From Chrysophaeum taylorii (taxonomy: Eukaryota > Sar > Pelagophyceae > Pelagomonadales > Pelagomonadaceae): 51,960 bases of DNA. The stretch covers positions 1 through 51,960 of the forward strand of contig JAQMWT010000197.1 in assembly GCA_029834535.1 (NCBI GenBank). Direction: 5' to 3'. This document shows, in pieces, positions 9,052-42,616 of the stretch (position 1 is the stretch's first letter; each line of letters starts with the position of its first letter). Both the position numbers and the translations under genes were made by a program. The notes under the pieces are model-generated. The model searched no databases. It worked only from the letters and a program-made list of their open reading frames with translations, and was not told the DNA's origin.

Positions 9052-9131
9052 TGTGGCGGCAACTCCCGCCTCCTAAGGCTTACCCCTCTTCTAGCCCCCC
9101 CCCCCTTATCAGGGGCGCCCTACTCCGTCAT

Positions 9132-9161
9132 GATGATGTCAGTTTTCTTTATGACATCATC
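9132..9161. promoter_or_regulatory. 10-bp inverted repeat in the Gypsy-2 LTR
   Basis: GATGATGTCA (9132-9141) and TGACATCATC (9152-9161) are perfect reverse complements separated by 10 bp. Each half resembles a bZIP site (TGACATCA). The 3' LTR keeps the right arm intact but has GATGATGCCA on the left. It could be an enhancer for LTR transcription or an RNA hairpin; this is inference only. Confidence 0.4.
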
Positions 9162-9200
9162 TTCCCTTTCCGTGACATGTGCCACCCTGGTTTCTGTGTT

Positions 9201-9224
9201 TGGATAATATCTTAATCATAAAGC
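9201..9224 (+). promoter_or_regulatory. TATA-like stretch in the Gypsy-2 5' LTR
   Basis: GGATAATATCTTAATCATAA is the only AT-rich stretch of the LTR and is kept in the 3' LTR. Gypsy-3 has ATCATAAATCG at the matching place. It is a plausible core promoter for the genomic RNA, not proven. Confidence 0.3.
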
Positions 9225-9388
9225 AACAGCCGATCCTCAAGTTGTGAGGACCAGGCACGGAAGTTGTTTGTGGTTGTGTGGCGAGAGAACGGCCATCCTC
9301 GTCCAGTGACTCCATCAAGGGCACGGACGCGAGCGGCGAGCCAGGATTCGAGGGCACGCCAGGTAGTCCTAAATTCTCCTTGCGCCAT

Positions 9389-9408
9389 TGGTGATGGAGG
9401 ATATGAGA
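9389..9408 (+). other. Primer-binding-site candidate of Gypsy-2
   Basis: TGGTGATGGAGGATATGAGA follows the 5' LTR directly and starts with TGG, as expected for pairing with a tRNA 3' CCA. Gypsy-3 has TGGTGGAGGCTACGAGA and Gypsy-1 TGGTGGAGTACACGAGA in the same place. I cannot name the tRNA. Confidence 0.4.
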
Positions 9409-10085
9409 TTCGAGCGACCATATCGGTCGCAGCGGACGAGTGCATCTTGCATTCTCTATACGGTCCGGACAAGCCGTGCGCGCTCTGATCAAGCGCGCCG
9501 ACGAAGAGTTCCACGAGGACCACTGCCGTGGGAAAATTCCCCGGCCGGATACATTAGTCGTCGGAGGTGACGACGCGCGATTCGGTTCTAGCCGACGCGC
9601 AACCCGGGTACCGCTGCCGCAGGCGAGCGGAGTGAGACCGCAACTCACTGAGGCATTGATTGCCGGGCAGAGACGAATTCTGCCGCCCACCGGACTGATA
9701 GATCGGTCGGTGGAAGACGCATGCGACGACGATATTACGCGTGTCGTGGACGAGTAGAAGTCCCAGAGTCGAAGGAGCACGATAACGACGACGACTCAAC
9801 CATTTTGGACCCGCTCTGATCTCGGCCGATTAGAACGAGCCAGAGCCAATGTGAACGATGATGATGCTGCCGACGAGCAGATGCGATACGACGAACCGCT
9901 AAGCCGTCAGGATGAGACGAGCGAGGGAAACGATGACCCGAAGACGATGATAACGATGACGAAGAGCACGACACTGAAGTTGACAACGAGGAAGAAGAAC
10001 TAGACTACAACAACGGCGAACCGGCGGAGAGACCGCCGGGAGGACGACCGACAGCCCCGTCAACGCGTGCACGAAACCCGGATGT
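9409..10085 (+). pseudogene. Gypsy-2 gag N-terminal region, frame-broken
   Basis: In three frames the region matches the equivalent stretch of Gypsy-1 and Gypsy-3: GGYEIRA ... DEC, then ALIKRADEEFHED in the next frame, comparable to CALIKHAEFQW in Gypsy-1. An acidic run coded from about 9940 (DDNDDEEHDTEVDNEEEEL) leads into the coiled coil at 10093. I recognise no known domain. It is probably the matrix-like N-terminus of Gag, split by frameshifts around 9480, 9760 and 9940. Confidence 0.45.
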
Positions 10086-10578: not shown

Positions 10579-10664
10579 ACTTGTTCTTAATTGACGCGAT
10601 CAGGACCAGTTCGATTTAGATGCGGGCGCGGTGATGAGTACGTTGGCCGAAGACCATTTTTGGC

Positions 10665-13529
10665 ATGGAGAAGCTGCGGTACCTGCTGCCCGCGAGCTTG
10701 CGCGACACAGTCGCACCGATTTTTCGAGAACACTTGAAGAAGTACGAAGACCTGTATAAAGATCTCGATCACCCAGCGTCTTTTAATTTACGACGGGATA
10801 TCGACGATGAGGAGTACGGTTCAGTGGTACGACGAATACGACGACTGGACGAGAAGTACTGCATCGAGATTTTAAGATATTTCCGAGAGAGTTGCCCATT
10901 GCCGATGACGGCTGAGGAATTACTACGAAAACTGCAGGGCACGACCCAAGCGACCGTTCCGCAACGATCTGGTGAACGCCACGTGCATACTTATTGCATC
11001 AAATTTCAGAAAAAAGCCATGGCGTATTGCTCTGTGGTCAACCGAGATCTCAACGACGTGGAGATCATTTCTTACTTGATACGTGGACTGGAGTCCAGCG
11101 AATTGAAATCCCGCGTGCGAACCATGCGCAGCGGGCACCCGACGACGTATAACACGTTTACGTCGACGTTGTCATGGATTACACCGCTCGATAACGATTT
11201 CGCAACCGCCATGGCGGAGCGGAACAGCCGAAATCCACCGAACGCGTCGGGCGGGAAGCCGCAGAAGCCATCGTCCGGACGCGGAGGACGAGCGCTCGCC
11301 TCGGGACCGAAAGATAAAACGACGAAATATGAAGCATTGCGTCTAGAAGAGAATCCGAAAAAGTGGTTCGAGAGCACATGCAAGGATTGTGGGTTTTTCT
11401 TAACGACCCACGAAAAGGATGAACACGGGAACCGGGTCATTTGCAACCGCGAGCCTGATGACTATTATGTGGCGATGTGTAAGTACATCGAAGACGGTAA
11501 AAAGCCCATCTCTCGGGGACGATGGGAGAGCCGACAAAAGAAAGATAATCATTCGCGTGACGACGGCAGTTCCAATGCCACCCTCGGTTCGAGCGCCGCT
11601 CACGATATTCAGAGCAGACTCAACGATATGGGCACGCAGCTGACCACGGTTGTGGATTCCGTGAGGCACTTGAAAGATGGACACGGCCGATCGTCTTCGA
11701 CACGACCGGGCCGTCGAGATAGCCGGAGCCCCCGACGCCGCGACAAGAGCCGTAGCAGCTCGCGCCCGCGCCGACGGAAAGAAAGCCGGAGCTCTAGCAG
11801 ACATTCACGCCGCCGCCGGCGACGAAGATCTCGCGATCGAAATTCGGACGATGGTCGTTATCGGGGAGACTCGGGACATTCGTCTGCAACGTTCGCGTTT
11901 ACGACCCCTTGCGGTCAACAGTTACCATTAGGAGTGATGGTGTACCCGAACACGGACATCCGCACCGACGACGCAGCCGACGCCCTTGCCGCGGCCGCAT
12001 TCGACGATCTTGCTCGCCCGCCGATGGACGAGCCACCCAGCGTGCTGACCGATCATCGGTCTTTGGCACAGATTTATGAGGAGATGTCGAGCGATGAACT
12101 CGAAGAGTCGAGCAATGAACTCGAAGCTCCACGATACTGGGAAGGCGATTCAGACTCGGAAGACGAAGAAGCTACACCTTGTGAACCAGTGTCCGCGATA
12201 ACGTTACCCGACGAGTCGTCCACGGACGACCCACCGTTTGTTTTTGACGAGGAAGCCCTCGACGCTATCGGCTTATCTTTGGACCCTCCAGAGACGACCT
12301 TTAGCGACCGAACTGTCTGTGAGCCAGACATGGATTTCTGCAGTGATAGCTCGGATGATCATTCGACGGACGAGACGGTGACCATCGCGAGTGAAGCAGA
12401 CGACGATCTTACGATAGAGTTGACGTCGGGGACGACGCTATCTTTTCCTGCGGACCCCCCCGAAACGGTTTCGGTTACGACGGATCGAGCCACGGACACG
12501 CCGCCGGAAGAAAAGGATAAATTTATGAAGAAGATAAGCAGCGTTCTCGATGGGGACGAAGACGAGCCGACGTGGAACCTGCAGGATTGGTGGACGAGAA
12601 CTCGGAACTTCTTGCTAAAGAAGCCACCAGAACAACCGCTCAGCTACGGACTCGAAGCCGCAGCCACCACGGAACCGATCGCCGATGATGAGGATGATCA
12701 ACCGATGACGAATGAATCTACGGATGCATTCTGGAAAGACGAAATGAATGAGTTATGGGAGAGGTCCTTTGCTTCCGAGAATAACGAAGATCAGGATCCC
12801 CTACCAGCACTGATTCCCTCCGAGATTGTCATGGAGGAAGAACGGAAGCCGCCAGATAAAGAGGCTGCCGCGAGCGTTACGTCGATGACGCCAACAACAG
12901 ATGATACGAGAGCTCAAGCCGCGGTGTCGATGCCCAACCCCGGAGATGAGCGAGTCAGAGCCCAATGTGCTCACACTGCGCTGACGCCGCGAGATGGCAA
13001 GACTATCGAAGATGATTTGGTTACCCTCCGTTGTTTGGATACGGGTACTCTTACGTTTATGGCCTGTCACATCTACAGGAATCGTGACGGACCGAAATTC
13101 TCGACGACCATCGGTGTCGATGGAATGGCAGATGTTTCTTATATTTGCCAAGAAATGATCGGAAAGTTGGCCAAAGGTAAGTTGATTTTCGATGAAGGCG
13201 AACTTCCGATTAAGCGCAAGCTGTACGGATCGGGGTTGAATACGACGACGATCTTTCGTTGGATCGCGATTCGGGTCGCTCTCGCCGACAACATCGCCGC
13301 CCCCATTGTCGCTATTGTGGCCGATACGAACTATCTGTTCCTGTTGGGAGGGCGCGATATACGAGTTTTAGGAGCCGTCGTGGACTACCCCCACGATCGG
13401 ATCTGTTTTTATCGAACCCAAGTCGTCTACGGGCTCAAGAAGATTAAAGTCAAGGACGAACGAGTCGATGCACCCATCGTGACCTTTCGATCTATTTACG
13501 ATCGAGACCCGATAACCGTACCGATTTAA
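10665..13529 (+). CDS. Gypsy-2 Gag (capsid, Cys/His cluster, RS tail) and aspartic protease
   Basis: 954 codons. Residues 1-190 are capsid-like, with YCIKFQKKAMAYCSVV and SRVRTMRSGHPTTYNTF, matching Gypsy-1 and Gypsy-3. A Cys/His cluster follows at C239, C242, H249, H254, C260 and C273, in the place where nucleocapsid CCHC knuckles usually stand. Residues about 340-415 are rich in RS dipeptides and Arg. A long acidic Ser/Asp/Glu-rich stretch with YWEGDSDSEDEE follows. Residues about 785-920 are retropepsin-like: the catalytic Asp would be D819 in VDGMADVSYI, and GGRDIRVLGAVVDY follows near the end. Gag should assemble the particle and the protease mature it. The TAA at 13527 aligns with a Tyr codon in Gypsy-3, and the frame reopens directly after it, so Gag-Pol was one frame here. 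The annotated ATG is only where this frame reopens after a shift. Confidence 0.7.
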   Translation: MEKLRYLLPASLRDTVAPIFREHLKKYEDLYKDLDHPASFNLRRDIDDEEYGSVVRRIRRLDEKYCIEILRYFRESCPLPMTAEELLRKLQGTTQATVPQRSGERHVHTYCIKFQKKAMAYCSVVNRDLNDVEIISYLIRGLESSELKSRVRTMRSGHPTTYNTFTSTLSWITPLDNDFATAMAERNSRNPPNASGGKPQKPSSGRGGRALASGPKDKTTKYEALRLEENPKKWFESTCKDCGFFLTTHEKDEHGNRVICNREPDDYYVAMCKYIEDGKKPISRGRWESRQKKDNHSRDDGSSNATLGSSAAHDIQSRLNDMGTQLTTVVDSVRHLKDGHGRSSSTRPGRRDSRSPRRRDKSRSSSRPRRRKESRSSSRHSRRRRRRRSRDRNSDDGRYRGDSGHSSATFAFTTPCGQQLPLGVMVYPNTDIRTDDAADALAAAAFDDLARPPMDEPPSVLTDHRSLAQIYEEMSSDELEESSNELEAPRYWEGDSDSEDEEATPCEPVSAITLPDESSTDDPPFVFDEEALDAIGLSLDPPETTFSDRTVCEPDMDFCSDSSDDHSTDETVTIASEADDDLTIELTSGTTLSFPADPPETVSVTTDRATDTPPEEKDKFMKKISSVLDGDEDEPTWNLQDWWTRTRNFLLKKPPEQPLSYGLEAAATTEPIADDEDDQPMTNESTDAFWKDEMNELWERSFASENNEDQDPLPALIPSEIVMEEERKPPDKEAAASVTSMTPTTDDTRAQAAVSMPNPGDERVRAQCAHTALTPRDGKTIEDDLVTLRCLDTGTLTFMACHIYRNRDGPKFSTTIGVDGMADVSYICQEMIGKLAKGKLIFDEGELPIKRKLYGSGLNTTTIFRWIAIRVALADNIAAPIVAIVADTNYLFLLGGRDIRVLGAVVDYPHDRICFYRTQVVYGLKKIKVKDERVDAPIVTFRSIYDRDPITVPI

Positions 13530-13592
13530 AATCATCAACACGATGCCTTTCGGAAGAGTCTCGACCTAGTCAAGACTCGAGTTTACGCTCGT

Positions 13593-15212
13593 TTGAGCAC
13601 GATTAAAGACCTCCGAAGCCCGTCGCCGGAACGAACGGTAGCTTTGGCTACGCGGGGACATGCTACGACCAAATTCTCCCCAGCTCCGGGAGAAGCCGCG
13701 CGAGAAGTAGTGGCTTACGCTGCGCGCACGCTTCAAATCGAGCCCGGTCGAACTTACAATCTACCGGTTATTTTGTCGAAACCTATGGAAATGGGACAGG
13801 TTTTCGTCGCTACGTTTGCTGAAAACGAGCAGCTGGGAGTCGTTGAAGGAATGTGTTCTTCTTGCGAAGAGCACGACCGGTCCGCTGCTCGGGTTGCGGT
13901 TACAGCCGCGGAGGAAGTGCCGACGGTCGTCACTCAAGGCGAAGTCCTCGCGATTGGCGATATCGTTCGGTACGAAGATGAGTTGAATGTCTCTACGATC
14001 AACGAACTTACGAAAGAATGTGAAGAAGGATACGACAAGGGGAACCTTTCTTTCACCGTTTCCGTCGCTAGTCATTTGACGCATTGCGACGCGTCTCCCC
14101 CGCCGATGTTGCTGAGCACGGCGCAGAAGGACGCTACGACCGCTATTGCGGACAAGTCCTCCCTCAAACGACCCGAAGGCGACGACGATTTTGCTCGAAG
14201 GTCGGAAGAAGACGAAAAGAAGTGCCGCGAGATCACCGAAGCGGAGATCCGCCGCCAATACGAAAAGGTTCAATGGCTTCCAACACACACTTATCGCAAG
14301 GTGGTGATGCTGTTCAGTGGAGCCGGGGGCAGTACTTTAGGTCTCCAACGAGCCAACGAACTGTGTGGAACGTCGTTTCGAGTCGTGCTAGCACTCGATG
14401 CGTCGGACACCGCCAACCAGATCCACCACAAGAACTTTCCGAATATTCCTGTGGTGCAGCACACACTGTGTGGTCGCTATGTTACAACCTTACGGTTCAT
14501 CGAATCTTATTTACCCTACGCGGAATGGTCGTCGTCGATGTGTGTCGCGTCGCCACCCTGCGTACACTCCGCTCTGTGCAACTTGACTTCCAGAGATGTT
14601 GGGAAGGGAGTCACCGCTACCCACTGGACGATGAAATTATGCAAGATGGCTGGTTTCTTCATGTGGTTGATAGAGCAGGAGGCCTCGATTATTTCTTACG
14701 TTGCACGTTTGCACCCTTACGTGTACGTCGTCAATTTTTACGACATAACACCCAGTTTGATGAGCTGTCGCGTGCGATTGTTGGTTTCCAGCCATCCGCT
14801 CCATTTGCGCGCAGTTCCAAAGACTTGCAAGAATATGCAGCAAGAGTTCGCCGCCGCGCTTGGCTACGCCGACGAACGACATTTACTTCAGATGAACAAT
14901 TTAGGATCATCACGAGCCGCGACAGACGCAGCTTATACCGTTCCGCGTGTCCCGCTTCGCGTAGGACCGCACCGTTCCGATTACAGATCTCTGAATCTGA
15001 AAATGACTTCGGAGTTGCTGACAATGCCCCTTGATTTTGATTGGGCCGGCTTCTCCAGGACGACCTCGTTGAAACACTTGGCGTCCGTCGTGCCACCAGA
15101 CACGATGACCTTATTAGTACTCGATCTGCACAACTCCGCGACCAAGGACTTTCACTTGAGCGGCGAAGCTTGGCCGTCTGCGTTAAGTCCTGCAGACCGA
15201 CCGTTTGATTAA
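13593..15212 (+). CDS. Gypsy-2 Pol: beta-domain plus C5-cytosine DNA methyltransferase-like domain
   Basis: 539 codons, in the same frame as the upstream Gag-protease. Residues 35-140 (VVAYAARTLQIEPGRTYNLP, then GQVFVATFAENEQLGVVEGM) form the beta-rich module that follows protease in gypsy pol. Residues about 225-510 show the ordered motifs of C5 DNA methyltransferases. Motif I is MLFSGAGGSTLGLQRAN (from residue 239). A II/III-like part is VVLALDASDTANQIHHKNFP. Motif IV is CVASPPCVHS, with nucleophile Cys323. A Glu in WLIEQEA lies 38 residues later, where motif VI Glu is expected. Motif VIII-like is NFYDITPSLMSCRVRLLV, motif IX-like is LNLKMTSELLTMPLDFDW, and motif X-like is LKHLASVVPPDTMTLLVL. 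Predicted role: methylation of cytosine in element or host DNA. ENV and GN of the canonical motifs are not kept, so activity is uncertain. It ends at a TAA where Gypsy-1 has CAG. Confidence 0.72.
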   Translation: MSTIKDLRSPSPERTVALATRGHATTKFSPAPGEAAREVVAYAARTLQIEPGRTYNLPVILSKPMEMGQVFVATFAENEQLGVVEGMCSSCEEHDRSAARVAVTAAEEVPTVVTQGEVLAIGDIVRYEDELNVSTINELTKECEEGYDKGNLSFTVSVASHLTHCDASPPPMLLSTAQKDATTAIADKSSLKRPEGDDDFARRSEEDEKKCREITEAEIRRQYEKVQWLPTHTYRKVVMLFSGAGGSTLGLQRANELCGTSFRVVLALDASDTANQIHHKNFPNIPVVQHTLCGRYVTTLRFIESYLPYAEWSSSMCVASPPCVHSALCNLTSRDVGKGVTATHWTMKLCKMAGFFMWLIEQEASIISYVARLHPYVYVVNFYDITPSLMSCRVRLLVSSHPLHLRAVPKTCKNMQQEFAAALGYADERHLLQMNNLGSSRAATDAAYTVPRVPLRVGPHRSDYRSLNLKMTSELLTMPLDFDWAGFSRTTSLKHLASVVPPDTMTLLVLDLHNSATKDFHLSGEAWPSALSPADRPFD

Positions 15213-15415
15213 TATTTGCAAATTGATGACACCACCCTTCGTCACGTACAAGTACCGCTGTTAAACACGCGCACACGTGCCGTAAGCTGGGTGTCGACTG
15301 ATGATCTCCAAGATCGCACCAAATGGAAACCTCCAGAGGTACCGTTGATTCCGCCTGCAACAGATGAGCCGGGGACGTCTCGCGCTTCTTCTGCTGCCCC
15401 CCCCGACAACCAAAT
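15213..15415 (+). other. Gypsy-2 Pol linker between methyltransferase and RT
   Basis: The frame of the methyltransferase reopens after the TAA at 15210-15212 and stays open (DDTTLRHVQ, VSWVSTDDLQDRTKW) to a run of C at about 15397-15404. The frame changes there: Gypsy-1 has a shorter C run and continues directly into DVPPDPEPEQEPK. The shift is therefore a homopolymer indel in this copy. I recognise no domain in the linker. Confidence 0.5.
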
Positions 15416-16594
15416 TTGGACGTTCCGCCAGATCCTGAGCGAGATCGTGAACCGAAGATTAAGAGCGAGCCGAGTGTTCGTGTCAATGGCGAGAGGATCA
15501 ACAAAAGCCACCCGGAAGTGAGACTAAAATATGAGACAAAGTTTGATGTGCCATGGGAAGATGCGCCGCACGATGCTGAGGGTGCACCGCTACCGCAAAC
15601 TCCTGAGCATGTCAAGGATAACAACGCCATGAAAGTTCAAATTCCTACGAAGGAAGAAGTTGATAAGGTTGTTCAGGAGTTGGGAATTCCTGACAATCCG
15701 CACTTAGATGACGAGGCGAAACTGATGCTCCGTCACTGTGTGCAATATTCTTGGGCCTTTTTCGACCCGATTATGAGACCTGTGGACTCACCTCCTGTGT
15801 CTCTACGATTCAAAGACGCGAATCCGCGACCGATTAAGATGACGCCCTACCGATTGACGCCTGCGAAGCTCGATTGTCTCCGCAATCAGATCAGCGAGTG
15901 GTGCCGGGATGGAGTCATTCGTCCGGCCGACTCACCTTGGGGCTTTCCTGTGTTGATGCTTCCGACGAAAGGAGCTGAGATTGGAACGTCAAACGCGTTC
16001 CGCGCTGCAGTTGACTTACGTCAGCTCAACGATCAATCGGTCAATGACAGTTGGCCGAACATTCGACAAGATGATGCTTTAGCTTTTCTCGCTATGCGAC
16101 GATGGCGGACATGCATTGATATTAGATGGGGATACCACAACCTTCGTCTGGATCCGGCAGCGCAAGACGCTGTCACGATGGTTAGCCCACTTGGTGCTCA
16201 TAGTTTCTTGCGATTACCTCTAGGTGTGAAGACAGCCGGTGCTCTTTTCTGCAAGCAAATGGCGAGCGACCTTTCGAAATGGATGTATCGAGACTTGGTT
16301 GCGTTTGTTGACGATAATATGATGGGATCCGACGATCTTCATCGACATTTACAAGTTTTGATCGAAATGATGTGTCATTGGTCCCAGAGAGGGTACAGCG
16401 GTCGAACCGCGAAGTTCCACCTTCTCAAGGATGATATAGAATTTCTTGGACACATCTCGACCCCAGAGGGCTTGAAGCCGAATCCGAAGACGCTGGAAGC
16501 ACCGCAGAAGATGCCGATTCCAGGTACTTTGCCGAATACTTTCCCGAAGACCCAGATACGCTCTTTCATCGGCATGAGTAATTACTACCGATGA
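15416..16594 (+). CDS. Gypsy-2 Pol: reverse transcriptase
   Basis: 392 codons. A basic/acidic linker leads into a classical gypsy RT from about residue 120. Recognisable parts are TPYRLTPAKLDCLRNQISEW, SPWGFPVLMLPTK, AAVDLRQLNDQSVND, TCIDIRWGYHNLRL, FLRLPLGVKTAGALFCKQM, and the catalytic box FVDD (residues 297-300) in VAFVDDNMMGSDDLHRHLQV. The thumb (KDDIEFLGHISTPEGLKPNP) and the end (RSFIGMSNYYR) follow. The palm Asp in TCIDIRWG and both Asp of FVDD are present. The TGA stop at 16592 sits where YR-R/YVKGY is expected, so it is most simply a CGA to TGA change. The next frame continues in phase. RT copies the genomic RNA in the particle. Confidence 0.9.
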   Translation: MDVPPDPERDREPKIKSEPSVRVNGERINKSHPEVRLKYETKFDVPWEDAPHDAEGAPLPQTPEHVKDNNAMKVQIPTKEEVDKVVQELGIPDNPHLDDEAKLMLRHCVQYSWAFFDPIMRPVDSPPVSLRFKDANPRPIKMTPYRLTPAKLDCLRNQISEWCRDGVIRPADSPWGFPVLMLPTKGAEIGTSNAFRAAVDLRQLNDQSVNDSWPNIRQDDALAFLAMRRWRTCIDIRWGYHNLRLDPAAQDAVTMVSPLGAHSFLRLPLGVKTAGALFCKQMASDLSKWMYRDLVAFVDDNMMGSDDLHRHLQVLIEMMCHWSQRGYSGRTAKFHLLKDDIEFLGHISTPEGLKPNPKTLEAPQKMPIPGTLPNTFPKTQIRSFIGMSNYYR

Positions 16595-16597
16595 TAT

Positions 16598-16837
16598 GTG
16601 AAGGGCTACTCGAAGATCGTGGAACCGCTGAGACGATTATGCCTCGAAGGCGCAAAGTTCGAGTGGACGCCCGAGTGTCATAAAGCTTGGGATACGATTA
16701 GTGAGGCTCTGGTTGATTCCCGTGGAGTCTACCACCCCGATTATGATCTGCCTTTTCAGATCCGATCCGATGCTTCCATGGACTTGGAGCGTATCTCTTC
16801 CAGATTGTCGAAGTCAAGGACGATGCCGGGAGAGTGA
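16598..16837 (+). CDS. Gypsy-2 Pol: RT connection and RNase H start
   Basis: In phase with the RT frame after its TGA. It encodes YSKIVEPLRRLCLEGAKF, then HKAWDTISEAL, and PDYDLPFQIRSDASM, where the first RNase H catalytic Asp lies in the DAS box. After DASMDL the frame is shifted; RNase H continues in the frame of 16834 with FQIVEVKDDAGRV. The last 24 residues listed in this frame are therefore out-of-phase translation. Confidence 0.7.
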   Translation: MKGYSKIVEPLRRLCLEGAKFEWTPECHKAWDTISEALVDSRGVYHPDYDLPFQIRSDASMDLERISSRLSKSRTMPGE

Positions 16838-17991
16838 CTCGAGATGAACGAGTGATTGAATATTGGAGCCGAGCTGTGCCGAAGGAGATGCGCAATTACG
16901 AGCCCCGCCGGCTAGAGCTGCTGGCAGTTATACTTTCTCTAGAGCACTTTCGAGCCTACATCGAAGGGCGCCGGACTGTTTTGGAGACCGATCACCGAAA
17001 TTTGACGTTTTTACGTAAGGCGACGCACTCGTCTGGGCAGCTTGCTCGTTGGGCGATGCGCCTCGCCAATTTTGACCCTGAACTTGGTTACAAGCCGGGA
17101 AAGTCGCCGGGAATGAGTATCCCTGACTGTCTCTCCCGCAATCCGATAGATCATGTCATCGAGACTGACGAGTTTGGAGAACCTTTGAACCACGCTTGTT
17201 TGGTGTTCCAAGAGCTTCCCCGACCTGTTGATGACCGAGGAATTCCCGCCTCCGGCTGCCACTTCATAATGTCGTTTGTTACGACCGAACTGCCGGAAGA
17301 CGAAGACGAAGGCCCTGAAAAGGATCCGATGAAACTGGCTACATCTCATGCTACGAGACAACGTCGGAAGAACCGTGCGCACGATGAGCCACAGGTCTTC
17401 AAGGACGCAGCCGCTTACAAAGATTATATCGATAAGATACCCGATAATATGACGCTCGCTGAGATCGCACGTGAGCAAGAATCTGATGCTACTTGCGAGG
17501 ATATTCGCCACCGAATGGCCCAAGGTCAGACGCCGCGACGTTCCCGAGCGAACGAACGATTCGAAGTCGTTAAAGACGTTCTTTACCGCATTTCTGCTGA
17601 TTTGTACCCGATGATTGTTGCACCTGCTACGTTTCGCAAGCGCATTATTCGACTCTACCATGACACTCCGGTTAACGGTGGTCATATGGGACGTCACAGT
17701 ACTGTCCAGGCTATCCAAGAACGATTTTGGTGGCCCCACATGTCGAACGAAGTTGGAGTCTTCATTGCTGAATGTTTAGTTTGCCAGAAAGCTCGTACGC
17801 CTGAGCCGAAACGAGCTGGACTCTTGCAACAGCCCATCTACGATGGTGATGGTGCTGTTCTTTGCATGGATTTATTTGGACCCTTGCCCAGCGCTGGTCC
17901 CGAGACGTATCTTCTAGTATTTTTTGATCCGTTCTCGCATTTCTTGATTCTGGGTGTTTTGAACGATAAGACTGCTGCGTCCGTCCTCTAG
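16834..17991 (+). CDS. Gypsy-2 Pol: RNase H and integrase N-terminal half
   Basis: 385 codons. Residues 1-110 complete RNase H: VIEYWSRAVPKEMRNYEPRR with the Glu of LELLAVILSLEHF, then ETDHRNLTFLRK and PDCLSRNP. From about residue 260 comes the integrase zinc-binding HHCC domain: LYHDTPVNGGHMGRHSTVQ ... CLVCQKAR. The catalytic core starts with VLCMDLFGPLP (first Asp of DDE) and LLVFFDPFSHF. The TAG at 17989 interrupts the core; the next codons (SFVINILLKGYLPQMIRTDN) continue in phase and hold the second Asp. Integrase would insert the cDNA and make the 5-bp target duplication seen at the element's ends. Confidence 0.88.
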   Translation: MTRDERVIEYWSRAVPKEMRNYEPRRLELLAVILSLEHFRAYIEGRRTVLETDHRNLTFLRKATHSSGQLARWAMRLANFDPELGYKPGKSPGMSIPDCLSRNPIDHVIETDEFGEPLNHACLVFQELPRPVDDRGIPASGCHFIMSFVTTELPEDEDEGPEKDPMKLATSHATRQRRKNRAHDEPQVFKDAAAYKDYIDKIPDNMTLAEIAREQESDATCEDIRHRMAQGQTPRRSRANERFEVVKDVLYRISADLYPMIVAPATFRKRIIRLYHDTPVNGGHMGRHSTVQAIQERFWWPHMSNEVGVFIAECLVCQKARTPEPKRAGLLQQPIYDGDGAVLCMDLFGPLPSAGPETYLLVFFDPFSHFLILGVLNDKTAASVL

Positions 17992-19161
17992 TCTTTTGTC
18001 ATTAACATCCTCCTCAAGGGCTACTTGCCCCAGATGATTCGTACCGACAACGGTAAATAGTTCGTGAACAAGTTAATGCGCGAGTTTTGCCATCTCTTTA
18101 ACACACGATACCAAACTACGATTCCTTATCATGCCCAGTCGAACCCGGCTGAGCGTGTTAACCGATTTATCAAGGCCTTCCTCCGTGCTTGCCTTCAGGG
18201 CCGGGACATCACGGATTGGCCCGACTTTGCCCATTATATTGCGTTTTGTTACAACCGCAAGTTTATTCCAGGCACGCAGATTTATCCCTTTATGCTGCGC
18301 CTGAACCGTCAGCCGATGCTGCCTACTGACTACACGCTTATGGATTTTGATACGCGATTGTTCCCGAAGACTCGCTCTGATGCAGCCGCCGAAACTCGTG
18401 AACGACTGAAGTATTATACGAAGATCGTCCGCGAGGCTCGTGATATAGCTTTGAAGAAACAACGATTGGCTTATAATGCCGATCATGTCGATGTTGAGTA
18501 CAAGGAAGGATCGCACGTTTTGCTCTGCTTTCCTTTCCTTCAGAACAAACTTCGACCGGAATGGGGAGGACCGTTTATTATCAAGGAACGACTTTCCACG
18601 GCCACCTATATGATTGAGTCTCTCGACTCTCCGCCCGAAGAACGACGTGTTCATGTTAGTCAGATCACGCCTGTGATGGTACCTCCGATCGTTGATCAAA
18701 CCATCCGCAAACCCGAAGAAACCTTCCGTGATGATTATCAGCACGGCAAGTTTGTTGTTTTCCGGATTCCTGACCGGAAGCGCTCTGATTGGCGCAAGAA
18801 GATTTATGTTGCCGAAGTTTACGAGCCTTACGATTACCAGAATGACCGTGTTGCTCTACATTTCTATTCCGATTTGGGTCCGAACGATGATGTCGCTTAT
18901 TTCAAGCCGACCTCTCACCTTTCGCATCGCAAACTCAAGCCCGAGTTCAAGGACGTTGAAGGTCGCAGTTTCACCGATAAGTCCAGAATCTCATCCAACA
19001 CAACTCCTTGTGTCACGGATTTCGCTCCGCACCAGATTGATGTGTTGATCCCCAAGTTTACTTTGCGCGTTGGTCGAGTTCCTGAACCGATCATCACCCG
19101 CGTTTATCAGAAGATTCGTTCACGAGATGCTCGTAAGGCGAAGCCGCGCTCCTCGCGCTAG
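17992..19161 (+). CDS. Gypsy-2 Pol: integrase C-terminal half and C-terminal extension
   Basis: The frame opens at 17992, and a TAG at 18058 falls where NG-K-(Q)-F is expected. The DDE Glu lies in HAQSNPAERVNRFIKAFLRA. A GPY/F module follows (WGGPFIIKERLSTATYMIES), the usual integrase tail of gypsy elements. Past it is an extension of about 150 residues with KFVVFRIPDRKR and KKIYVAEVYEPYDYQNDRVA, which reads like a small beta-barrel. I cannot name it; a chromodomain-like targeting role is possible but not shown. The end is a basic tail, RSRDARKAKPRSSR, before the stop at 19159-19161. A short G/A-rich stretch (CCTGGGGAG) precedes the 3' LTR as polypurine-tract candidate. Confidence 0.82.
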
Positions 19162-19201: not shown

Positions 19202-19529
19202 TGTGGCGGCAACTCCCGCCTCCTAAGGCTTACCCCTCTTCTAGCCCCCCCCCTTATCAGGGGCACCCTACTCCGTCATGATGATGCCAGTATTCTTTAT
19301 GACATCATCTTCCTTTTCCGTGACATGTGTCACCCGGATTTCTGTGTTTCGATAATATCTTAATCATAAACGATCCTCGAGTTGTGAGGACCAGGCACGG
19401 AAGTTGTTTGTGGTTGTGTGGCGAGAGAACGGCCATCCTCGTCCAGTGACTCCATAAAGGGCACGGACGCGAGCGGAGAGCAAGGATTCGAGGGCACGCC
19501 TGGTAGGACTAAATTCTCCTTACGCCACA
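19202..19529 (+). repeat. Gypsy-2 3' LTR
   Basis: A copy of 9052-9387 starting TGTGGCGGCAACTCCCGCC and ending TACGCCACA. It lacks a few bases (around CATAAACGATCC) relative to the 5' LTR. The differing bases indicate an insertion that is not recent. Confidence 0.88.
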
Positions 19530-24951: not shown

Positions 24952-25138
24952 TAGAGAACAGTAAAAATCACTGTGCCTCTGGTAGAGAATGGTGGCAGTG
25001 GTAGTGTCACTCTTATTGCCCTGTCTCCAACGACACAAAGAGCAGCACGGTGTTCGACACCGCGATTTGGGTGTTTAGGTGTGAGTGTGAGACTAGGGGG
25101 AGGGGGGTCCTAACCCTAAATGGAATTTTCTATCTCTA
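24952..25138 (-). repeat. Element A 3' LTR
   Basis: Starts TAGAGAACAGTAAAAATCAC and ends GGAATTTTCTATCTCTA on the plus strand. By eye it differs from the partner LTR at about ten positions plus the G run. It contains CCTAACCCTAAA near its end. Confidence 0.87.
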
Positions 25139-25518
25139 CGCCCTCGCAGATTGAACTCGGTTATGAGCGCAATCTGGGACAAACAAAACAAAATGTGTGG
25201 CCAGAGACAAATAGACGTTGAATTGTGAGGCGGCGTGGAAGGAAAAGTGTGCGAAGTGCACGAGAGAGATAGAGTAGAGCGGAATAGCAGGCAAGTGTGA
25301 GTGAGAAAGGAGAAAGAGCGCGAAGTCGAATATGGCAGAGGTTGAGAGGGGAAGCAAAATGGAAAGGATATTGCAAGAAGAGGCGAATGCTCGAAGAGAA
25401 GAAAAGAAAAGGCATCGATCATAAGGAAGAAGAAAAGTGGAGGAAGATGCTAAGAGGGTACGTGGAGGAAAATGCGGGGTAGGCTAATGGCGAAGTATGG
25501 CGAATTCTGTTCGAGAGA
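25139..25518 (-). other. Element A 3' untranslated region
   Basis: From the stop of the long frame to the 3' LTR. Purine-rich on the plus strand, with many GAGA/GGAA runs (25240-25480). The LTR-adjacent CAATCTGCGAGGGCG (minus strand) is shared with B and C and is the polypurine-tract candidate. No gene is seen. Confidence 0.5.
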
Positions 25519-28500
25519 TCAGATCATCATATTGTTCAGTGACTGATGAGATAGGGGACGGTGCGTGCCGGTGGATAAATCCCAAGTGGCTGGGGGATCC
25601 TCGTAGTAGAACGGGTGGTCTAACTGATAACAACAGTAGGGATCATGGGTCAGGCAGTCGGGAATTGTGCAGCAGACCAATGGTTGATCGAAAGGTGAAT
25701 GGTGAGAGTGGCCGTAGGGATGAGATTCTATTGTGACTAACGTTCTGCTAGTAAAGGTTTGACGATGTGACGGAGCGCCAGCGTCATCCCATGAAGAGAC
25801 ATGACCATTTAACCAAATCGGTTTCGACATGGTAAGGTAATCGTCGTAATGATGGCGAGTAAGGCGGAGCTGTTTCTGGAAGATGAGAGAACCAGAATTG
25901 CCTGTCACATACGTGTCGAAGCTGTCGTCCTGAGTGTAGTGTGGGACGGCTGAAGCTAGGCTATAAGCGTGTAAAGTAATATGCGGATAATCGTAGCGCG
26001 GTGAGGATATCGGGATAAAGTTGTCTGGGGGTGGCCATAAATATGAAAACTATAAATTTGCTGTAGACGTGGAGTTGTAGTCTCGTGTAAGTCGCCAGTG
26101 GCTATCATCGAAAGATGATTGGGATGATACTGAGGTTTGCGAGTGTATCGCGGATGATGGTGGATACAGGCGTGTGTCCTGTGCTGAAGAGTCGGTGTCC
26201 TGTGCCGAAAATGCAGAAGAGTCGGGCAACGGAAGAAGATGCCGGAAGGCGATGGACTGCTTGAAGATATTGTCCGTGCCAGGGGGAGAGTTGACTTCGA
26301 AGGTATGGTCAAAGTCGCGTCTTTCGTGTTTTATTCGACAAAGTAATCCTGAACTGTGACAATCGACTGATCCAGTATTCATTTCATGTGCAAAGTCGTT
26401 TTCACCAGAATCGAACTTCCCTTGATGTACAAACGCGAGGGAGCGTGGTGCATCCCTGGTGAATCGTGCAGTGACTGAAAGGGGGGACATTCGACAGGAG
26501 GGTGTTGTCGATATGCGAGAGCTGTACAGTATACAACGTGTAGGGAGCGTATGTTTCAAGAGAGGATTAATCTGTGGACGGGAGATGTCCGAATAATGAA
26601 CATGATGTGAGGTAATGTCCATAATGCGAGAACTGTCCGACAATGAGTCATGCGAGACTGTGGCTAGCAGCGAGTGTGTGGGAATGCAGAAGTTGATAGG
26701 CATGGCAGTTAACTTCCCTTGATTCGTAACACAACTGGGTGGGGCTAGCGGTGTGCGGCAGAGCGCGTGTCCAACCTGTGGAGATTGGGGGTTATCCTCG
26801 CGGGTGCTACGGAAAGTGTCGACTGGGTGCGAATCGCAATGGCGGCTGTTGGGCTCAGAGTTCTGCAAGGTGGAACCTGCAGTGCGAACGGAGAGGAGCG
26901 AACCGGGTGCGTCATAAGAGCGTAAGACGCGAGTGTAGTCTGAGCTGTGTCCGAAGCAGGATTCTGACAGTAACGTAGAGATGCGAAACATGATCAGAAT
27001 TGGGCGAGGATGTCGCGTGAAGTTGTGTTGTAACCGAACCATAGTGGTGCAGAGCTTCGACGTCAAGCATGGTGCTGGGAGTGACGTGAAAAGATGTGAG
27101 CAAAGGACTCTGAGTGCGGCTATCATTTGGTGGCGGGCATTTATTGAGCGAGACTGGCGATAACTGCGACGTTTGGCTTTGGCGTGACAGAACTTCGTTT
27201 GCATATGACAGCGTGCATGATAAAATCGAGCGAGCTGAAACTTGAGAGGTGTAACCTGGAAGAGACTGCCGGAAGAGCGTGGGTGGCTCTGAATTGCATT
27301 GATAACGGAACTTAGTGTCATCACAAATCGTCGGGGATTTGGTCGTCGGGAGTCGCGTCGAAGCGGGGAGGAACGACGAATGCTCATCAGGTCTTGGCGT
27401 GTGACAGAGGTCCTTAGAAAGAGGGACTTCGGTACGTGCCTTGAATTGAGTTCCGATGTAGCCAGAGTAGCCATAGGAGGCATGACTGATGCGAATCGAA
27501 ACGAATCTTGTCGTCGGTGGAAAACTAATGCCCCCTCGTAATCGAACTGGGTAAAAATTTTTGAATTGCCGGTGAGACGGAGAGACCATGGTTGCGAAAC
27601 GAGCGCAGAGCCGGGCGGCGGTCGGAGGAGGCGCCTGAGCGGTGGCTGAGACGACAGTGTCCTGCGTATCCTGAATCAAAAGGTGTTCGGGCATCGTACT
27701 GTGCGACAAGCGAGCGTGCGTCTCAGTTGACTGTGAGTGTACCATGGTTATGGCGCAATGTTCGTAGTCTAAACCGAGAGGGACGGTGAGCGTGCCGTCG
27801 CGAGTGCATAGGAGCCTGTGCGGTGTCTGAGCTGTAATCGGAATATGACATATGACGTCATACAAAGCGATGGGAGCTGCATCAGACGTGATGGGACCGG
27901 CTAGTAGTGCCGGGAGCAGCGTGTCGGGGGTAGCGCTCAGAGATGAGGGTGGAACGCAGTCCACTTCTATCTTGGTTGCCGTGTGTCGCGGTACTATGAG
28001 CGTAAACAACGGACATGAAGTAAATGCCTGCGTCTCAAACGAGAATGCGGGTATAGTCGCATGGGAAGGTTGCATATTGTATCTGCTGCGGTCAAACGCT
28101 CTGGAGGATACCAATGGAGAAACCACGACCACATGGGTGGCGTCTGGTGGCCAAAGTTCCTGTGGGAGTGGTTGAGGTGACTCCAAAGTAGGACGCCTTC
28201 TTGGGTATGACTCAAGCGTTGCGATGAGTTCATGCTCGAGATCATAGTCGTCCATTAGATGAGTTGAGGTGGTCGCGAACGAGCGATACGTCGACCTGGT
28301 GTCAGGGGAGACCGAGATGGTGCAGTGATCTGACTGGCTGAGGTAGCCGTGCTGGTAAGATTCCAGCGGGTGAGTATAACTATGGAGAATGCTGGCATTG
28401 GCTTGTGCCTGATCTGCAGTCGTGCAGAGATGCGACATGGTCTGTACTAATGCGGATTGCAGCGACAGGGGCGGGTCAGGTGCCTGGGAGGCTGAAAGGC

Positions 28501-30820
28501 GGCCTTTGTCTTCCAGAGGCGAAGGGACCAAGCAGAGCTGTAGCTTCGTTTCGTCGCGATCAGATAGGCGCAATGAGCTTGTGCGCGTGATCGTGGTGCG
28601 CTTACCTGCATCTTCATGATGTACCTGTGTGTCCTGCGGTGGTGCTTCTGCGAGCGGGACATATCTTAAGGATTGGTCCATCGGATGGGGTGCATCAGCT
28701 ATGAATGAGACAGGAGCCAGTAGCAGTGCAAGGTCAGGTGACAGAACGTGTGCGTGGTCGAGTAATTGAGCGTCGGACCTGAGCATGGTCTGCATGGTCT
28801 GGAACCGTGCTGTGCAGTTGGTTTGCATTGTCTCGTCTGCTACATCAATGAGCTAGCTGGTGTAGCTGGCCGTTGTCGTCTTATCTTTCGTCTTGTCGTC
28901 CAATAGAGACTGCGAGATAGTACTCGTTGCTATGTACGAGACTATAAGTAGCTGTTGAGCAGCTGTGGAGAGCTGAGTGCTTTCTTGTCTGGCAGTTTCT
29001 GTGGCTTTCGAGTTCCAGAGACATGATTGCGCAGCTTCAGACGTCTTGGCATTGGGGATTGCCATAAAGCACCTCGCAAGTTCAAAGTCGGACGTCGGAA
29101 AATGCGTCGAAGGACCTGTGAGGTCACCAATTAAAATGCGCCCTCGTAAGGCGTGCGCGACGTGGTGCGGGCGCGAGCGACTTATTTTGGTGATCTGAAG
29201 GTCGTGAGATACGTTGCGGCTCGGAGTGTCGGTGGAAATGACGAGTGTCGTGGTGTTAGAGGCGGTGACGCGGAGAGCATCGAAAAGCGCGTCATGCTCC
29301 AAGAGCAAAAGCGCGCGATGCTGGTGGTCCGAAGTCAGTGCCAAAAGGGGTGTGGCTCGCGGCTGACCTGTCTGCAAGGTAGGGCAGATGGGCGCGTGAG
29401 CTGAGATCCCGTGGTGGAGAGTATCCGGCTTGGAATGCTGGGGGTCCAGTGCAGGAATTCGAAAAGGGGGATCGCCGAAGGAGAGTGCAGTAGAGCCAAG
29501 GGCGATGAAAGGGTCAGTCCTGCTGGGTGCATCCTTAATGGCGGAGATGTTGGGACCAGAGCAGTGAGTGCCGTAGTGACCAGGGTTGCCCTTAGGCGTG
29601 TGGAGCATTCGAAGGTGCGGGCATGTGACATGCGTCCTCAAATGAGGAGTGACGTGCCGAGCGATAAGACGCACGCTTTTGAGGGAGGCAACATGCGTGA
29701 CTTTGGTGCATGTTTGTGGTGGAGCCGGCAGCTGGCGTGGAACGTATTTCGTACATTCCAGTGATGCGAAAATGCTGACAGAAGCGGCACAGGTGAAGCG
29801 AGTCTGTGCATAGTGCGCGGAGAATGTTTCCTGAGAGCGCAACGTCGATTTTCCGGAGGCAGCGCAAGCGTGTGGCGTCCAGAAGAGAGCTATGCAAGGG
29901 GACATAAAGGACCGAAGTGGTCGCAATGGAATCGTGCATAGTTTGCGGCTGATCGGGCCGTTCAGAACTCTCGAAATCTGTGTCTGTTACTGCGGCCATG
30001 GGGAAAGCTTTCCAGAAGCTTGGTCGCGGTGAGACATAAGGATGGGCAGCCGAAAGGATTGCGCTCTCTGACTGAAAGTTGGGGAGCGGGTGATCATGTG
30101 CTGCGACTGCGACTGGTGCTCGTGCGAAGACATCCATCGAATCGTGACATGGTGATCGCAGATGGGTCCATGCAACCTGCTGAGCAGTGTCATCCAGTGC
30201 ATCCGGCCGAGAAGGTGGATGGTGGGTGCAGCAGCGAGCGCCGGTGAGCGGCAGTGCGCGCTTGTCTTCGGGGAGAGAAGGCGGCGAGGTGGAACCAGCT
30301 TCGAACTGATCGGGAGCTGCTGATCGAGAGAGATATCGAACAAGGCGGGAGTGCCTGGTGAATCTGAGCTGATACCTGCAGGTGCGGTGAGTACCTGCGA
30401 GTATGTTGACCGTGGGACCGTCGACAGCGTGTCTTGTATTTGTGGATACGGCATTGCAGGGGCATTGATGGTGCTTGGATCAGGTGGCTGATTTGGAATG
30501 GTCGGGGAGACCATCTTCGAGGCTAGTGGAGTGGGTCTTGCTTCTTCGCTGTATGCATCATACCAGGGGGCTGAATCCGAGGGGATGTTGTCAGTAGCCT
30601 GCGGCTCTTGTGCCTGGGGCATAGAGTACGGCGGAGCCTTGGGTCCTTGTGTGTAGTTGCATATAGTCCATAGTCGATATAGGCATAATACTCGGGAACA
30701 TCTCGAGGTGTCTTGTTCTTTGACTTGTCGAAAGTGGGAGCGAGGTGGCTTGGTGTTCCTTCGACAAGACTGCTTCCTGGGCCGTTGTGCCCGAAGAGAG
30801 AAGAAGCCCTTGTGCATGTT
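25519..30820 (-). pseudogene. Element A unrecognised long coding region (ORF2 part)
   Basis: A broken minus-strand frame, readable in pieces 30817-29987, 30137-29592, 29926-28853, 28828-26912, 27483-26050 and 25908-25519. Each piece matches B. Landmarks: PAMPYPQIQDTLSTVPRST, FPMAAVTDTDFESSERPDQP, PLHSSLLDATRLRCLRKIDV, LRGRILIGDLTGPSTHFPTS, HLMDDYDLEHELIATLESYP, FVSIRISHASYGYSGYIGTQ, VTGNSGSLIFQKQLRLTR, ATWDLSTGTHRPLSHQSLNN. The TAG at about 28855 aligns with CAG in B, and a TAG after STANL aligns with GAG in B. Both copies keep the same peptide across their indels, so this was a real protein of about 1,700 residues. I recognise no domain. It is rich in Ser, Thr, His and Pro. Confidence 0.5.
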
Positions 30821-32771
30821 TTGGCAGCATGATGGTGAGCATGACCATCAGGCAAAGAGCTGTCTTTTGATAATTCGGAATTTGTCGACTCTTGATGTTG
30901 GTGGTCTTGTTTCTTGGTGGGACTTTGCACGTTGCGGTCGTCGCTGATGGTAGGGGTACGGTCGCCGGTGTTGGATGTACGCCCTCGCAACTCGGACGCG
31001 GGGATGTGGTCGAGTTGGGATGAACCAGGTGGCTGAGAATGCGAGCGGGTGCAAAGGGGGCCGGGCGGATAGGCGAAGAGTGATTTGGCAGAGGAGGAGG
31101 GGCCAGAGATGGCGGGGGGTTGAGAACTGAGAGACGGAGTGGGTGTTGAACCATGAAAACCGTGTCCGGGGCTTCCGTGGAGGTGGTGATGATACTCGGG
31201 GAGAATCGGGGGAGAGGCATTGGAGGTTGGTTCGGAAGGGGATGAAGGTTGGTTGTTGATGGGGAAAGGAGGTGAAAGATGCGATGCAGCATCTTTGGTG
31301 GGGTGGGTGGCATCTAGTGAGGTGAGAATGGTGTTGACGACGGCGTTGGTTTCAAAGTGGGAGTTGCGGATGTCGGCGTGGGCAGTTTTCGAGTGCCTTG
31401 AACTGTGTGTGGGTGAGATGGAGCTCCGCGTGGGTGGAGACCAGTTCGTCGGCTTGGAAGGCGAGCTGGGCGGTGGCGAAAGCCAGGGCGGCGTCGGTGA
31501 TGGTGAGTTTGGCGGCTGTGGAGGACAAAGCGTCGTCCTTGCGAATGAGCATGGCCTTGGTTGCGGCCAAGTCAGCGGCTTGGGAGTGGAATGCAGCCAT
31601 AGTGGTGGCCAACTCGCGTTGGAGCGCAGACGGAGGTGCATTGGAACTTCGAGAAAGGAGGTGAGTTTCAGGAGGTGAGTTTTTGCTTGGGTGCAGACGG
31701 AGGAATGGTCGTAGTCGTGGAGTGCGTAGTCACGCGGGTGGAGATGAAAATCGGGGAGACCGCAACTTTCGAACGGTGATGAAGGTCGGTCAGGATGGTC
31801 CGATGGTTGGGCGGCAGGAGCTTGAGCCGCGGAAGGAGCTGGGGTAGGAATGGAAGTGCCGGGGCCGTCGTGGCCGTAGGTGGCATGGTATTGTGGGTGG
31901 AGATGAAAGTCTGGAGGAGAATGACTTGCCGAAGATGATGGATATCGGACAGGAGAATCCGACGGTGGGGCGGCAGGAGCTTGAGCCGCGGTGGGGGCTT
32001 GGTCAGGGATGACGGTGCCGGGGCCGTCATGGCCGTAGGTGGCATGATCGTCAGGAAGGGAATGAGTGTTGCGGCGAAGGGGTTGACGAGGATGTTGGGG
32101 AACTTGAATAGATGGTGAAGTGGGAGTCGCCGATAGTGGGGAGTTAGGCTCCAGTGAAGGAGGTGGAGGCTCCGGTGGGGTTGGTGGAGTGAAGGGAGTA
32201 ATGTATTGTGGTGGTGGTGGTTGAGTGTTCAACATTGCTGGTGCGATATTCGAACAAGGTGGCGTGTCCTCGTGAATGTGGGGTGTGCCAGGTTGTGAAG
32301 TAACCGTGGCTATGCCTGGGTCCGGAGGGAAGGCAGTGGGGTCGGAGACTTTGCTGTGGGGTGTTTGACATCCAGCGGAGTTGTCGGCATGAGGGGGGAT
32401 GACCATCGAGATGATCGGATCTTGGATCGCGGCTTCATTTTTCTTGAGGGGGGTTGCCGTAAGAATAGCTGTCGTGGAAGCTTGTTCGAATTGCTCGTCT
32501 TGATCGAGTTGCACGTCTTGGTCAAGTTGCCGTCTCGAGCTTCGATTGCGGCAGTGATTTTGGCTCTGAGATCAGCGTAACAAGCGGCGATTTTGACTTG
32601 TAAGGCAGCGTGATCAGCGGCGAGTTGATCTAATAAACTAGCTTTGCGCCGTTGGCAATCAGCGGCGAAGTAATCAAAGAAATCGCCTTTGAACTGTTGC
32701 ATGAGAGCTTGTTGCGTGGCGAGTTGCGTCGCTACTTCCAGACTCGGGACTTGTGGATCGTGAGTCGCCAT
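30523..32771 (-). pseudogene. Element A Gag-like proline-rich protein (ORF1 part)
   Basis: The ATG complement at 32769-32771 lies in an AAACGATGG context and starts MATHDPQVPSLEVATQLATQ. A helical stretch follows (FFDYFAADCQRRKASLLDQL, then KIAACYADLRAKITAAIEAR), with AAD-type motifs about 16 residues apart. After a frameshift near 32520 the frame to 30523 (663 codons) continues: LDQDEQFEQ, a long Pro-rich segment with two 53-residue repeats (HATYGHDGPGT ... SPPDFHLHP), a coiled-coil segment and LFGHNGPGSSLVEG. It is the counterpart of B (40083-42320) and of the short protein in C. Gag-like function is inferred only from position and coiled coils. No zinc knuckle or protease motif is seen. 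Confidence 0.5.
31715..32045 (-). repeat. 159-bp tandem repeat in element A ORF1
   Basis: GGCCGTAGGTGGCAT occurs at 31872 and 32031, and the surrounding sequence (GGCGGCAGGAGCTTGAGCCG, GGAGATGAAA) repeats with the same 159-bp period, or 53 codons. It encodes two HATYGHDGPGT units. B has the same duplication. Confidence 0.8.
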
Positions 32772-32991
32772 CGTTTTGGGGTTGCGTTTTGCGCGTTGTT
32801 GGTTGCCTTTCACACTTTTTCACACTCGTTCACCAGTAGCAAGCGATGAGACTTGACTACGGTCTTAAAAGTTGCCGGAACTTCAAGAGATTGCTATTGC
32901 CTGGAAACCCTGAGTCTTTGTCCGAGACGTTGATCGAGATCGATGTCTTGCGGAGGACCTTTCTCTACCAGTATCGGACTGGGTCCAAACC

Positions 32992-33177
32992 TAGAGAACA
33001 GTAAAAATCACAGTGCCTCTGGTAGAGAATGGTGGCAGTGGCAGTGCCACTCTTATTGCCCTGTCTCTAACGACACAAAGAGCAGCAAGGTGTTCGACAC
33101 AGCGAGTTGGGTGTTTAGGTGTTAGTGTGAGACTAAGGGGGGGGTGTCCTAACCCTAAATGGAATTTTCTGTCTCTA
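32992..33177 (-). repeat. Element A 5' LTR
   Basis: Plus-strand ends are TAGAGAACAG and TTCTGTCTCTA; it is the partner of 24952-25138. The interior next to it (minus strand) starts GGTTTGGACCCAGTCC, shared with B. Confidence 0.87.
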
Positions 33178-33184
33178 CTGTTAT

Positions 33185-33280
33185 TGTGAGGAAGCTATGA
33201 CACTTACCCCTGCACCACGTATCTAGTATCCCTACGTCATTCCCTTATCGCTAGTCTAACGCCCCATTCCAGTTGTAACA
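33185..33280 (+). repeat. Copia 5' LTR
   Basis: TGTGAGGAAGC ... CCAGTTGTAACA, 96 bp. It is followed by TGGCAGTAGGTGTTCTCC, a primer-binding-site candidate starting with TGG. Confidence 0.88.
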
Positions 33281-33298
33281 TGGCAGTAGGTGTTCTCC
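33281..33298 (+). other. Copia primer-binding-site candidate
   Basis: TGGCAGTAGGTGTTCTCC begins immediately after the LTR. The matching tRNA cannot be named from here. Confidence 0.4.
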
Positions 33299-33381
33299 AC
33301 GGTCGAGCCTCTGCTTGACTTCGTGGCGACTCCTCCTCGGCTTCAGTTCATTGCTACGTGTTCGGTTCGTTATCGTCCAAC

Positions 33382-36549: not shown

Positions 36550-36649
36550 TTCATTATGTCTTCCTCCCCCTTTGTCTAGCTAACACCCTTGTTGATCCCC
36601 ATGCACATGTTTATTACTCTGCTTCCGAAGAAACTCTCAGTATTCATAC

Positions 36650-42609: not shown

Positions 42610-42616
42610 GATGCAT

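Follow-up and report, generated by a model that had tools for sequence, protein, structure and literature searches.

We identified, on the evidence of its sequence, a Ty3/gypsy LTR retrotransposon that is multicopy in its host genome and whose Gag-Pol carries a predicted C5-cytosine methyltransferase (MTase) domain, placed 3' of a protease-like region and 5' of the reverse transcriptase (RT). The MTase domain has the catalytic residues and is under selection. The best explanation of the findings as a whole, to which we assign a probability of about 50%, is that the element-borne enzyme modifies the element's own cDNA. The copy described here lies in a window of 51,960 nucleotides, the whole stretch of DNA analysed, which is an entire contig (C197) of a 70.8-Mb assembly. 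Its features are as follows.

9052..9387, + strand: 5' LTR (TG...CA), direct repeat with 19202-19527
9395..9413, + strand: primer-binding match, 19 nt able to pair with the 3' end of host tRNA-Ala(AGC), gene L075
9937..10575, + strand: gag-like ORF, coiled-coil-like, no Pfam match above cut-off
10638..13526, + strand: gag/pre-protease ORF, ending at an in-frame stop in the window copy, no Pfam match above cut-off
13119..13526, + strand: protease-like stretch (DGMAD ... LLGGRDIRVLGAVVDY), motif level only, window position derived from copy L003
13530..15209, + strand: ORF comprising a post-protease linker and the C5-MTase domain (PF00145, E 2.8e-5, 24.2 bits, cut-off 22)
14265..15137, + strand: C5-MTase domain, from motifs, profile matches and conservation across copies
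around 14319, + strand: MTase motif I, FSGAGGSTLG
codon 14559-14561, + strand: catalytic Cys of MTase motif IV (SPPC), residue 344 of the 13530 ORF, 323 counted from 13593
codon 14673-14675, + strand: Glu of MTase motif VI, 38 residues past the Cys, in EQE instead of ENV
14769-14777, + strand: RxR of MTase motif VIII, RVR
15027, + strand: Pro of MTase motif IX, from the motif alignment
15093, + strand: VPP of MTase motif X, from the motif alignment
15368..16591, + strand: RT ORF (RVT_1, E 5.9e-10), frame different from that of the MTase in the window copy
16747..17988, + strand: RNase H and integrase zinc-binding region (RT_RNaseH, E 6.9e-21; Integrase_H2C2, E 5e-18)
18061..19158, + strand: integrase C-terminal ORF (Integrase_p58_C, E 0.0052; SH3_Tf2-1, E 0.05; both below their cut-offs)
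19202..19527, + strand: 3' LTR, direct repeat with 9052-9387

The LTRs are paired direct repeats with TG...CA ends, identical at 310 of 326 ungapped aligned positions (95.1%). Twenty-three tRNA genes were fetched and 17 compared in full with the primer site; the tRNA-Ala(AGC) gene shares 19 nt with it and the best of the 16 others 9 nt. A 12-mer scan over all 20 loci gave 12/12 for the same gene and 10/12 for two Val genes. The TGG that should pair with the CCA end is displaced by 3 nt. The 17-nt core of the site occurs at 36 exact places in the genome and at 59 with at most one mismatch, the backwards-read control giving 0; at least ten of the 36 are situated 3.9-4.7 kb upstream of listed MTase matches, in fitting orientation.

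The order RT, RNase H, integrase is that of gypsy elements. Integrase was recognised by its zinc-binding domain, the integrase core (rve) reaching E 0.12 in 16747..17988, below its cut-off. Retropepsin and gag are represented in the gypsy element by motif-like strings with no Pfam profile match, and the protease-like motif was located in two copies (L003 and L036). The window copy is decayed: stops interrupt it at 13527-13529 (upstream ORF) and 15210-15212 (MTase ORF), more stops follow 3', and no target-site duplication was seen flanking 9052/19527. An earlier, sequence-only reading had placed the MTase between protease and RT, in phase. Its position is supported, with the protease-like region recognised at motif level. 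As for the phase, the MTase ORF shares its frame with the ORF before it but is cut off from it by a stop, and RT is in another frame in this copy. Frame shifts between the MTase linker and RT also occur in copies L003 and L030 of subfamily A1; L029, L032 and L037 stay in one frame. The change seen in some A1 copies may be a programmed frameshift or shared decay.

The sequence-only reading had also proposed the C5-MTase itself, and here it holds. All motif strings that it cited are present in frame in 13530-15209, where motifs I, II, IV, VI, VIII, IX and X follow in order, and its Cys323 and the Glu 38 residues later occupy the codons given above. The Pfam match on the whole ORF spans motifs I-II only (residues 257-312); on the isolated window domain the score rises to 26.2 bits. 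Copy L003, in a context of 1,179 aa, scores 21.9 bits, just below the cut-off, as several family A rows do in the genome-wide search, and the NCBIfam dcm model (TIGR00675) gives 17.6 bits, far below its cut-off of 100.65. For L037, a relative with 40% identity, PF00145 aligns over two stretches and scores 34.6 bits, or 38.7 with the isolated domain as query; L036 is matched best over motif IX-X. The window domain is also matched by PHROG DNA methyltransferase profiles, at 28.4 bits (E 9.8e-7). When five phage MTases and two host DNMTs were aligned with the domain by L-INS-i, motifs I, II, IV (ASPPC), VI (IE), VIII (RVR), IX and X fell into register without guidance. A C5-MTase profile of seven references gave 32.8, 33.1 and 38.8 bits for the window, A2 and A3, none of 255 shuffled or reversed controls exceeding 4.2; this test is partly circular, because four of the seven references came from searches with L037, a member of family A, a circularity from which the Pfam and PHROG matches are free. 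Searched against 50,697 phage records, the L037 MTase had 14 matches at E<=10 (best E 0.006, others listed 0.6-6), and eight of the ten listed carry DNA or cytosine methyltransferase or methylase annotations. AlphaFold2, run on the window domain as a single sequence without aligned relatives, returned a pLDDT of 36.

Certain motifs depart from the canonical form. Besides EQE in motif VI, the Q of motif VIII is replaced by S and the GN of motif X by AS or GS; alterations of ENV and GN had been pointed out before and both were found. Because of these changes, activity of the enzyme is not assured.

Searching the 70.8-Mb host genome with the window ORF gave at least 80 match rows (78 of 1,234 first-look candidates scored), many of them without stops and two sitting in open frames of more than 3,000 aa. 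For subfamily A3 (L036, L037), about 40% identical over the MTase, there were at least 139 (130 of 891 candidates scored); rows may be fragments of one copy. A single ORF of L037 (349-2736) opens before the MTase and reaches the beginning of RT, and the MTase of this subfamily stands in Pol directly before RT, as in A1. Among the 30 fetched best-matching A1 copies, the catalytic Cys of motif IV and both Glu of motif VI are kept in all, the two Arg of RxR in 29 and 30, and the domain is free of stops in 25. The motifs of the sequence-only reading thus recur in other genomic copies, and they are kept even in the family with about 40% identity.

Comparison of substitution rates revealed constraint on the domain. 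In 30 copies taken as best matches to the MTase ORF, a choice that biases dN low, and with L029-L033, L038 and unfetched copies left out, pooled dN/dS was 0.213 for the MTase (bootstrap 0.157-0.298) and 0.294 for RT (0.226-0.377), with overlapping intervals, and 0.297, 0.350 and 0.664 for linker, protease region and gag tail, respectively. Between A1 (two copies, L003 and L002) and A2, the MTase showed dN of ~0.09 and dS of ~1.7-1.9, a ratio of ~0.05; the ratio was 0.040 for RT and 0.15-0.17 for the linker (for which alone L005 gave a value), all at near-saturated dS (1.6-1.9). Two A3 copies gave 0.225 for the MTase and 0.427 for the part following it. By these values the MTase domain, like RT, is under purifying selection, and it is maintained about as strictly.

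A new Ty1/copia family of the same genome (family B; L020, L025 and L081, on C582 and C96) has a different predicted C5-MTase, of PCQ/ENV type, between a protease-like motif and integrase/RT. The frame order is a DGGAS protease-like motif (no Pfam match), the MTase (L020, L025), an integrase-like stretch and a copia-type RT; L025 and L081 overlap on C96 within an uninterrupted frame of 1,952 aa, and L081 matches RVT_2 with E 8.5e-35 and rve with E 0.003, the latter below its cut-off. At least 120 match rows were found in the genome (111 of 695 candidates scored), dN/dS over 18 sequences was 0.165, and PCQ and ENV are present in 17/17 and 16/17 of the sequences covering those sites. Two LTR superfamilies in one genome, judging by these motifs, carry different-looking C5-MTases behind a protease-like motif. 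Alike in this placement, family B differs from family A by the presence of PCQ and ENV, by its copia-type RT and by an MTase without detectable relation to the other: hhalign found none with small alignments of little power (7 and 3 sequences), and in a small tree of 12 sequences family A joined host DNMT2 with support 70 and family B fell elsewhere with 42, values too weak to settle independence. The similar slot suggests that position, hence delivery together with the enzymes of the particle, is what selection favours.

The window also contains a copia element of its own at 33185-38492, with an identical 63-nt direct repeat at both ends and an RVT_2 match in 36596-37174. Pfam revealed no MTase in the three of its ORFs that were searched (33664-36546, 36596-37174, 37178-38248), which makes it a useful comparison element for the MTase-bearing families. 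A tblastn match of family B at 43283-43738 (E 2e-4) was weak and was set aside as probably compositional. Two units of 8-9 kb at 24952-33144 (- strand) and 39686-48560 (+ strand) are bounded by direct repeats and their long ORFs are alike, and 50029-51673 is the 5' part of an A2-like relative that stops short of the MTase near the contig end.

Next, we examined the methylation genes of the host. PF00145 gave at least 124 matches in its genome (123 of 474 candidates scored), part of the rows being assigned to a family. Two loci lead in strength, one of DNMT2 (L009; 1g55, E 3.9e-39) and one DNMT5-like (L010 on C621; 7r76, molecule name Rad8, E 3e-143); 7r76 is presumably Cryptococcus Dnmt5. Many of the remaining matches fall into family B. 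No DNMT1 or DNMT3 was recognised among the PF00145 matches listed, a partly assigned set from which spliced genes can escape, and PF12047 (DNMT1-RFD) had no match anywhere in the genome, the controls being likewise silent, so that this search is uninformative about DNMT1. Five matches to the methyl-CpG-binding domain (MBD) suggest that readers of 5mC exist in the host. The MBD matches at C498:9461-9670 and C498:21648-21779 fall within open frames 1342 and 1721 aa long and possibly represent another element-borne epigenetic domain. On the tRNA-rich contig C697, rbcL and rbcS adjoin. Their side-by-side arrangement fits a red-lineage plastid, and the host seems to be an alga with such a plastid.

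What might the MTase do for its carrier? It would be produced as part of Gag-Pol and either freed or held near RT inside the particle. There it could methylate cytosines of the element's own new nucleic acid, most likely cDNA before or at integration, so that the new copy would arrive with a mark read by the host as self or as silent chromatin, a mark that host DNMT5 could propagate. A function in the replication cycle of the element is likely, given the similar slot in two superfamilies and selection comparable to that on RT. DNA as the target is favoured by the presence of DNMT5 in the host genome; the accessible text of one study reports that DNMT5 autoinhibition is released by hemi-methylated DNA (PMC9998398). 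Domains of SymbioDIRS-Dnmt3 methylate CG in yeast, and in the same test the Klebsormidium gypsy DNMT, whose architecture is the closest one published, and a LINE DNMT were without activity, which the authors call inconclusive in the accessible part of their paper (PMC5890265).

The window element and its A1 copies bear no clear trace of such methylation. CpG observed/expected is 1.34 in the window element and 1.31 pooled over 30 copies, meaning no CpG depletion; it is 1.00 in A3 and B, 1.26 and 1.46 in two host gene loci and 1.09 in the MTase-free window copia. A3 and B thus stand lower than A1 and the host loci but close to the copia, and their ratio speaks neither for nor against methylation. 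C>T singletons were found at 151 of 819 CpG, 72 of 402 GpC and 195 of 1166 other C/G sites, without clear CpG excess. Lack of a CpG mutational footprint leaves room for RNA as the target. The MTase might thus act in a DNMT2-like manner on the genomic RNA of the element or on its tRNA primer, for packaging, stability or priming, a possible reading that we consider less likely than action on cDNA. Along with the unclear footprint, it is favoured by a primer site of tRNA-Ala type, by the tree position next to DNMT2 and by hhalign, which aligns family A with host DNMT2 over 143 columns with motif order kept (E 9.4e-5, probability 58.8) and gives nothing with host DNMT5. In a single-sequence search of PDB, moreover, the two matches naming a C5-MTase were DNMT2/tRNA C38 methylase, at a non-significant E of 0.17-0.18. 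DNMT2 has SPPC in motif IV as well and, set against the DNMT5 of the host, gives the better, though weak, profile match. Nevertheless, the similarity is weak and very remote, and with the family profile two 'cytosine-specific methyltransferase' chains (E 0.16 and 1.1) come out ahead of DNMT2 (1.3), none of them significantly. The CFT string is a mark of DNMT2; present in the host enzyme (L009), it reads AYT or AFT in the gypsy MTase, its Cys not being kept.

Changes in ENV, QxRxR and GN could also be expected of a catalytically dead fold retained in Pol for binding or as a scaffold. We find this distinctly unlikely, as Cys, both Glu and RxR persist in at least 29 of 30 copies and in subfamilies of ~40% identity, and GAGGST of motif I is intact. 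That the MTase is a passenger, or a host-protective brake that slows transposition and limits harm, was raised in its brake form as a possibility by de Mendoza et al. 2018 (PMC5890265, accessible text). Silencing marks would fit a brake, and selection on the MTase is all that speaks for it; a place inside Pol beside replication enzymes, in two LTR superfamilies, would better suit a part in the element's own cycle, and we consider the passenger or brake reading highly improbable. Mere chance resemblance of motifs, with no MTase at all, could appeal to the small Pfam margin of the window copy and its restriction to motif I-II, and is refuted in practice by PF00145 in L037 and L036, the PHROG and phage matches, the motif alignment and the seven-reference profile.

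Methylation of the element's own cDNA, the reading that we prefer, has a bolder version. In a genome whose sole recognised cellular DNA methylase gene is DNMT5, an enzyme said to require hemi-methylated DNA, the elements might supply the missing de novo MTase: gypsy and copia would have independently placed C5-MTases after the protease, each cDNA would be methylated on arrival and DNMT5 would copy the mark. We regard this version as rather doubtful.

Retrotransposon-borne DNMTs as such are not new, as the sequence-only reading rightly noted. The accessible text of de Mendoza et al. 2018 (PMC5890265) describes them in LINE and DIRS elements of Symbiodinium and in a Gypsy element of Klebsormidium. 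KnitGypsy-Dnmt3 of Klebsormidium nitens is similar to the window element in having a C5-MTase in a Gypsy-type Pol ORF, several copies and purifying selection; it is Dnmt3-related and has, per figure legend, DIRS-like repeats. In contrast, the window gypsy has ordinary direct LTRs, altered ENV and GN, a host with an apparent red-lineage plastid and no Dnmt3 similarity that we could see: no Dnmt3 chain was among the weak PDB matches of its MTase (the small tree contained no Dnmt3 sequence). SymbioDIRS-Dnmt3 and SymbioLINE-Dnmt likewise place C5-MTases by the hundred in the retrotransposons of an algal genome, but their carriers are DIRS and LINE elements with Dnmt3 or orphan MTases, and the same text states that LTR Copia of Symbiodinium is without a DNMT domain. 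Dam-type adenine methylases of DIRS elements and, in the accessible text of PMC9289625, the m6A demethylase of an orchid Ty3/gypsy element are further modification enzymes within elements, epigenetic or epitranscriptomic, and both unrelated to the present MTase.

The literature covered, which included few subscription papers or bioRxiv preprints, contained no report of a non-Dnmt3 C5-MTase in a gypsy Pol and touched on copia-borne MTases in a single sentence. This sentence, in the accessible text of PMC12344493 (2025), places DNMT3 members in 'LTR Copia and DIRS' elements, citing the 2018 paper, whose own text says Gypsy; a copia carrier may therefore already be named in print. Searches requiring shared exact words found no homologue among ~8,000 candidates scored per search in a set of 5.8 billion proteins, nor in viral contigs (families A and B) or prokaryote genome contigs (family A), and this dependence on exact words limits what can be claimed on MTase origin. 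A separate capture, as the sequence-only reading proposed, is plausible in view of the Dnmt3-free PDB matches and of direct LTRs as opposed to the DIRS-like repeats of KnitGypsy-Dnmt3 (accessible text of PMC5890265), but it is not proven; the gypsy MTase looks like a separate, non-Dnmt3 lineage.

Capture of MTases by retrotransposons was known from dinoflagellates and one charophyte. To these we add an alga with an apparent red-lineage plastid, an MTase lineage unlike Dnmt3 and a second MTase, in copia, at a matching place of the polyprotein. Two types of retrotransposon with an MTase in a similar place hint that modification helps elements to live with their host. With its DNMT5 and its MTase match rows from elements, which number in the hundreds, this genome of 70.8 Mb is a system small enough for testing elements as founders of host methylation. 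If elements indeed are the source of de novo methylation, the methylation pattern of this host would have been founded by its parasites.
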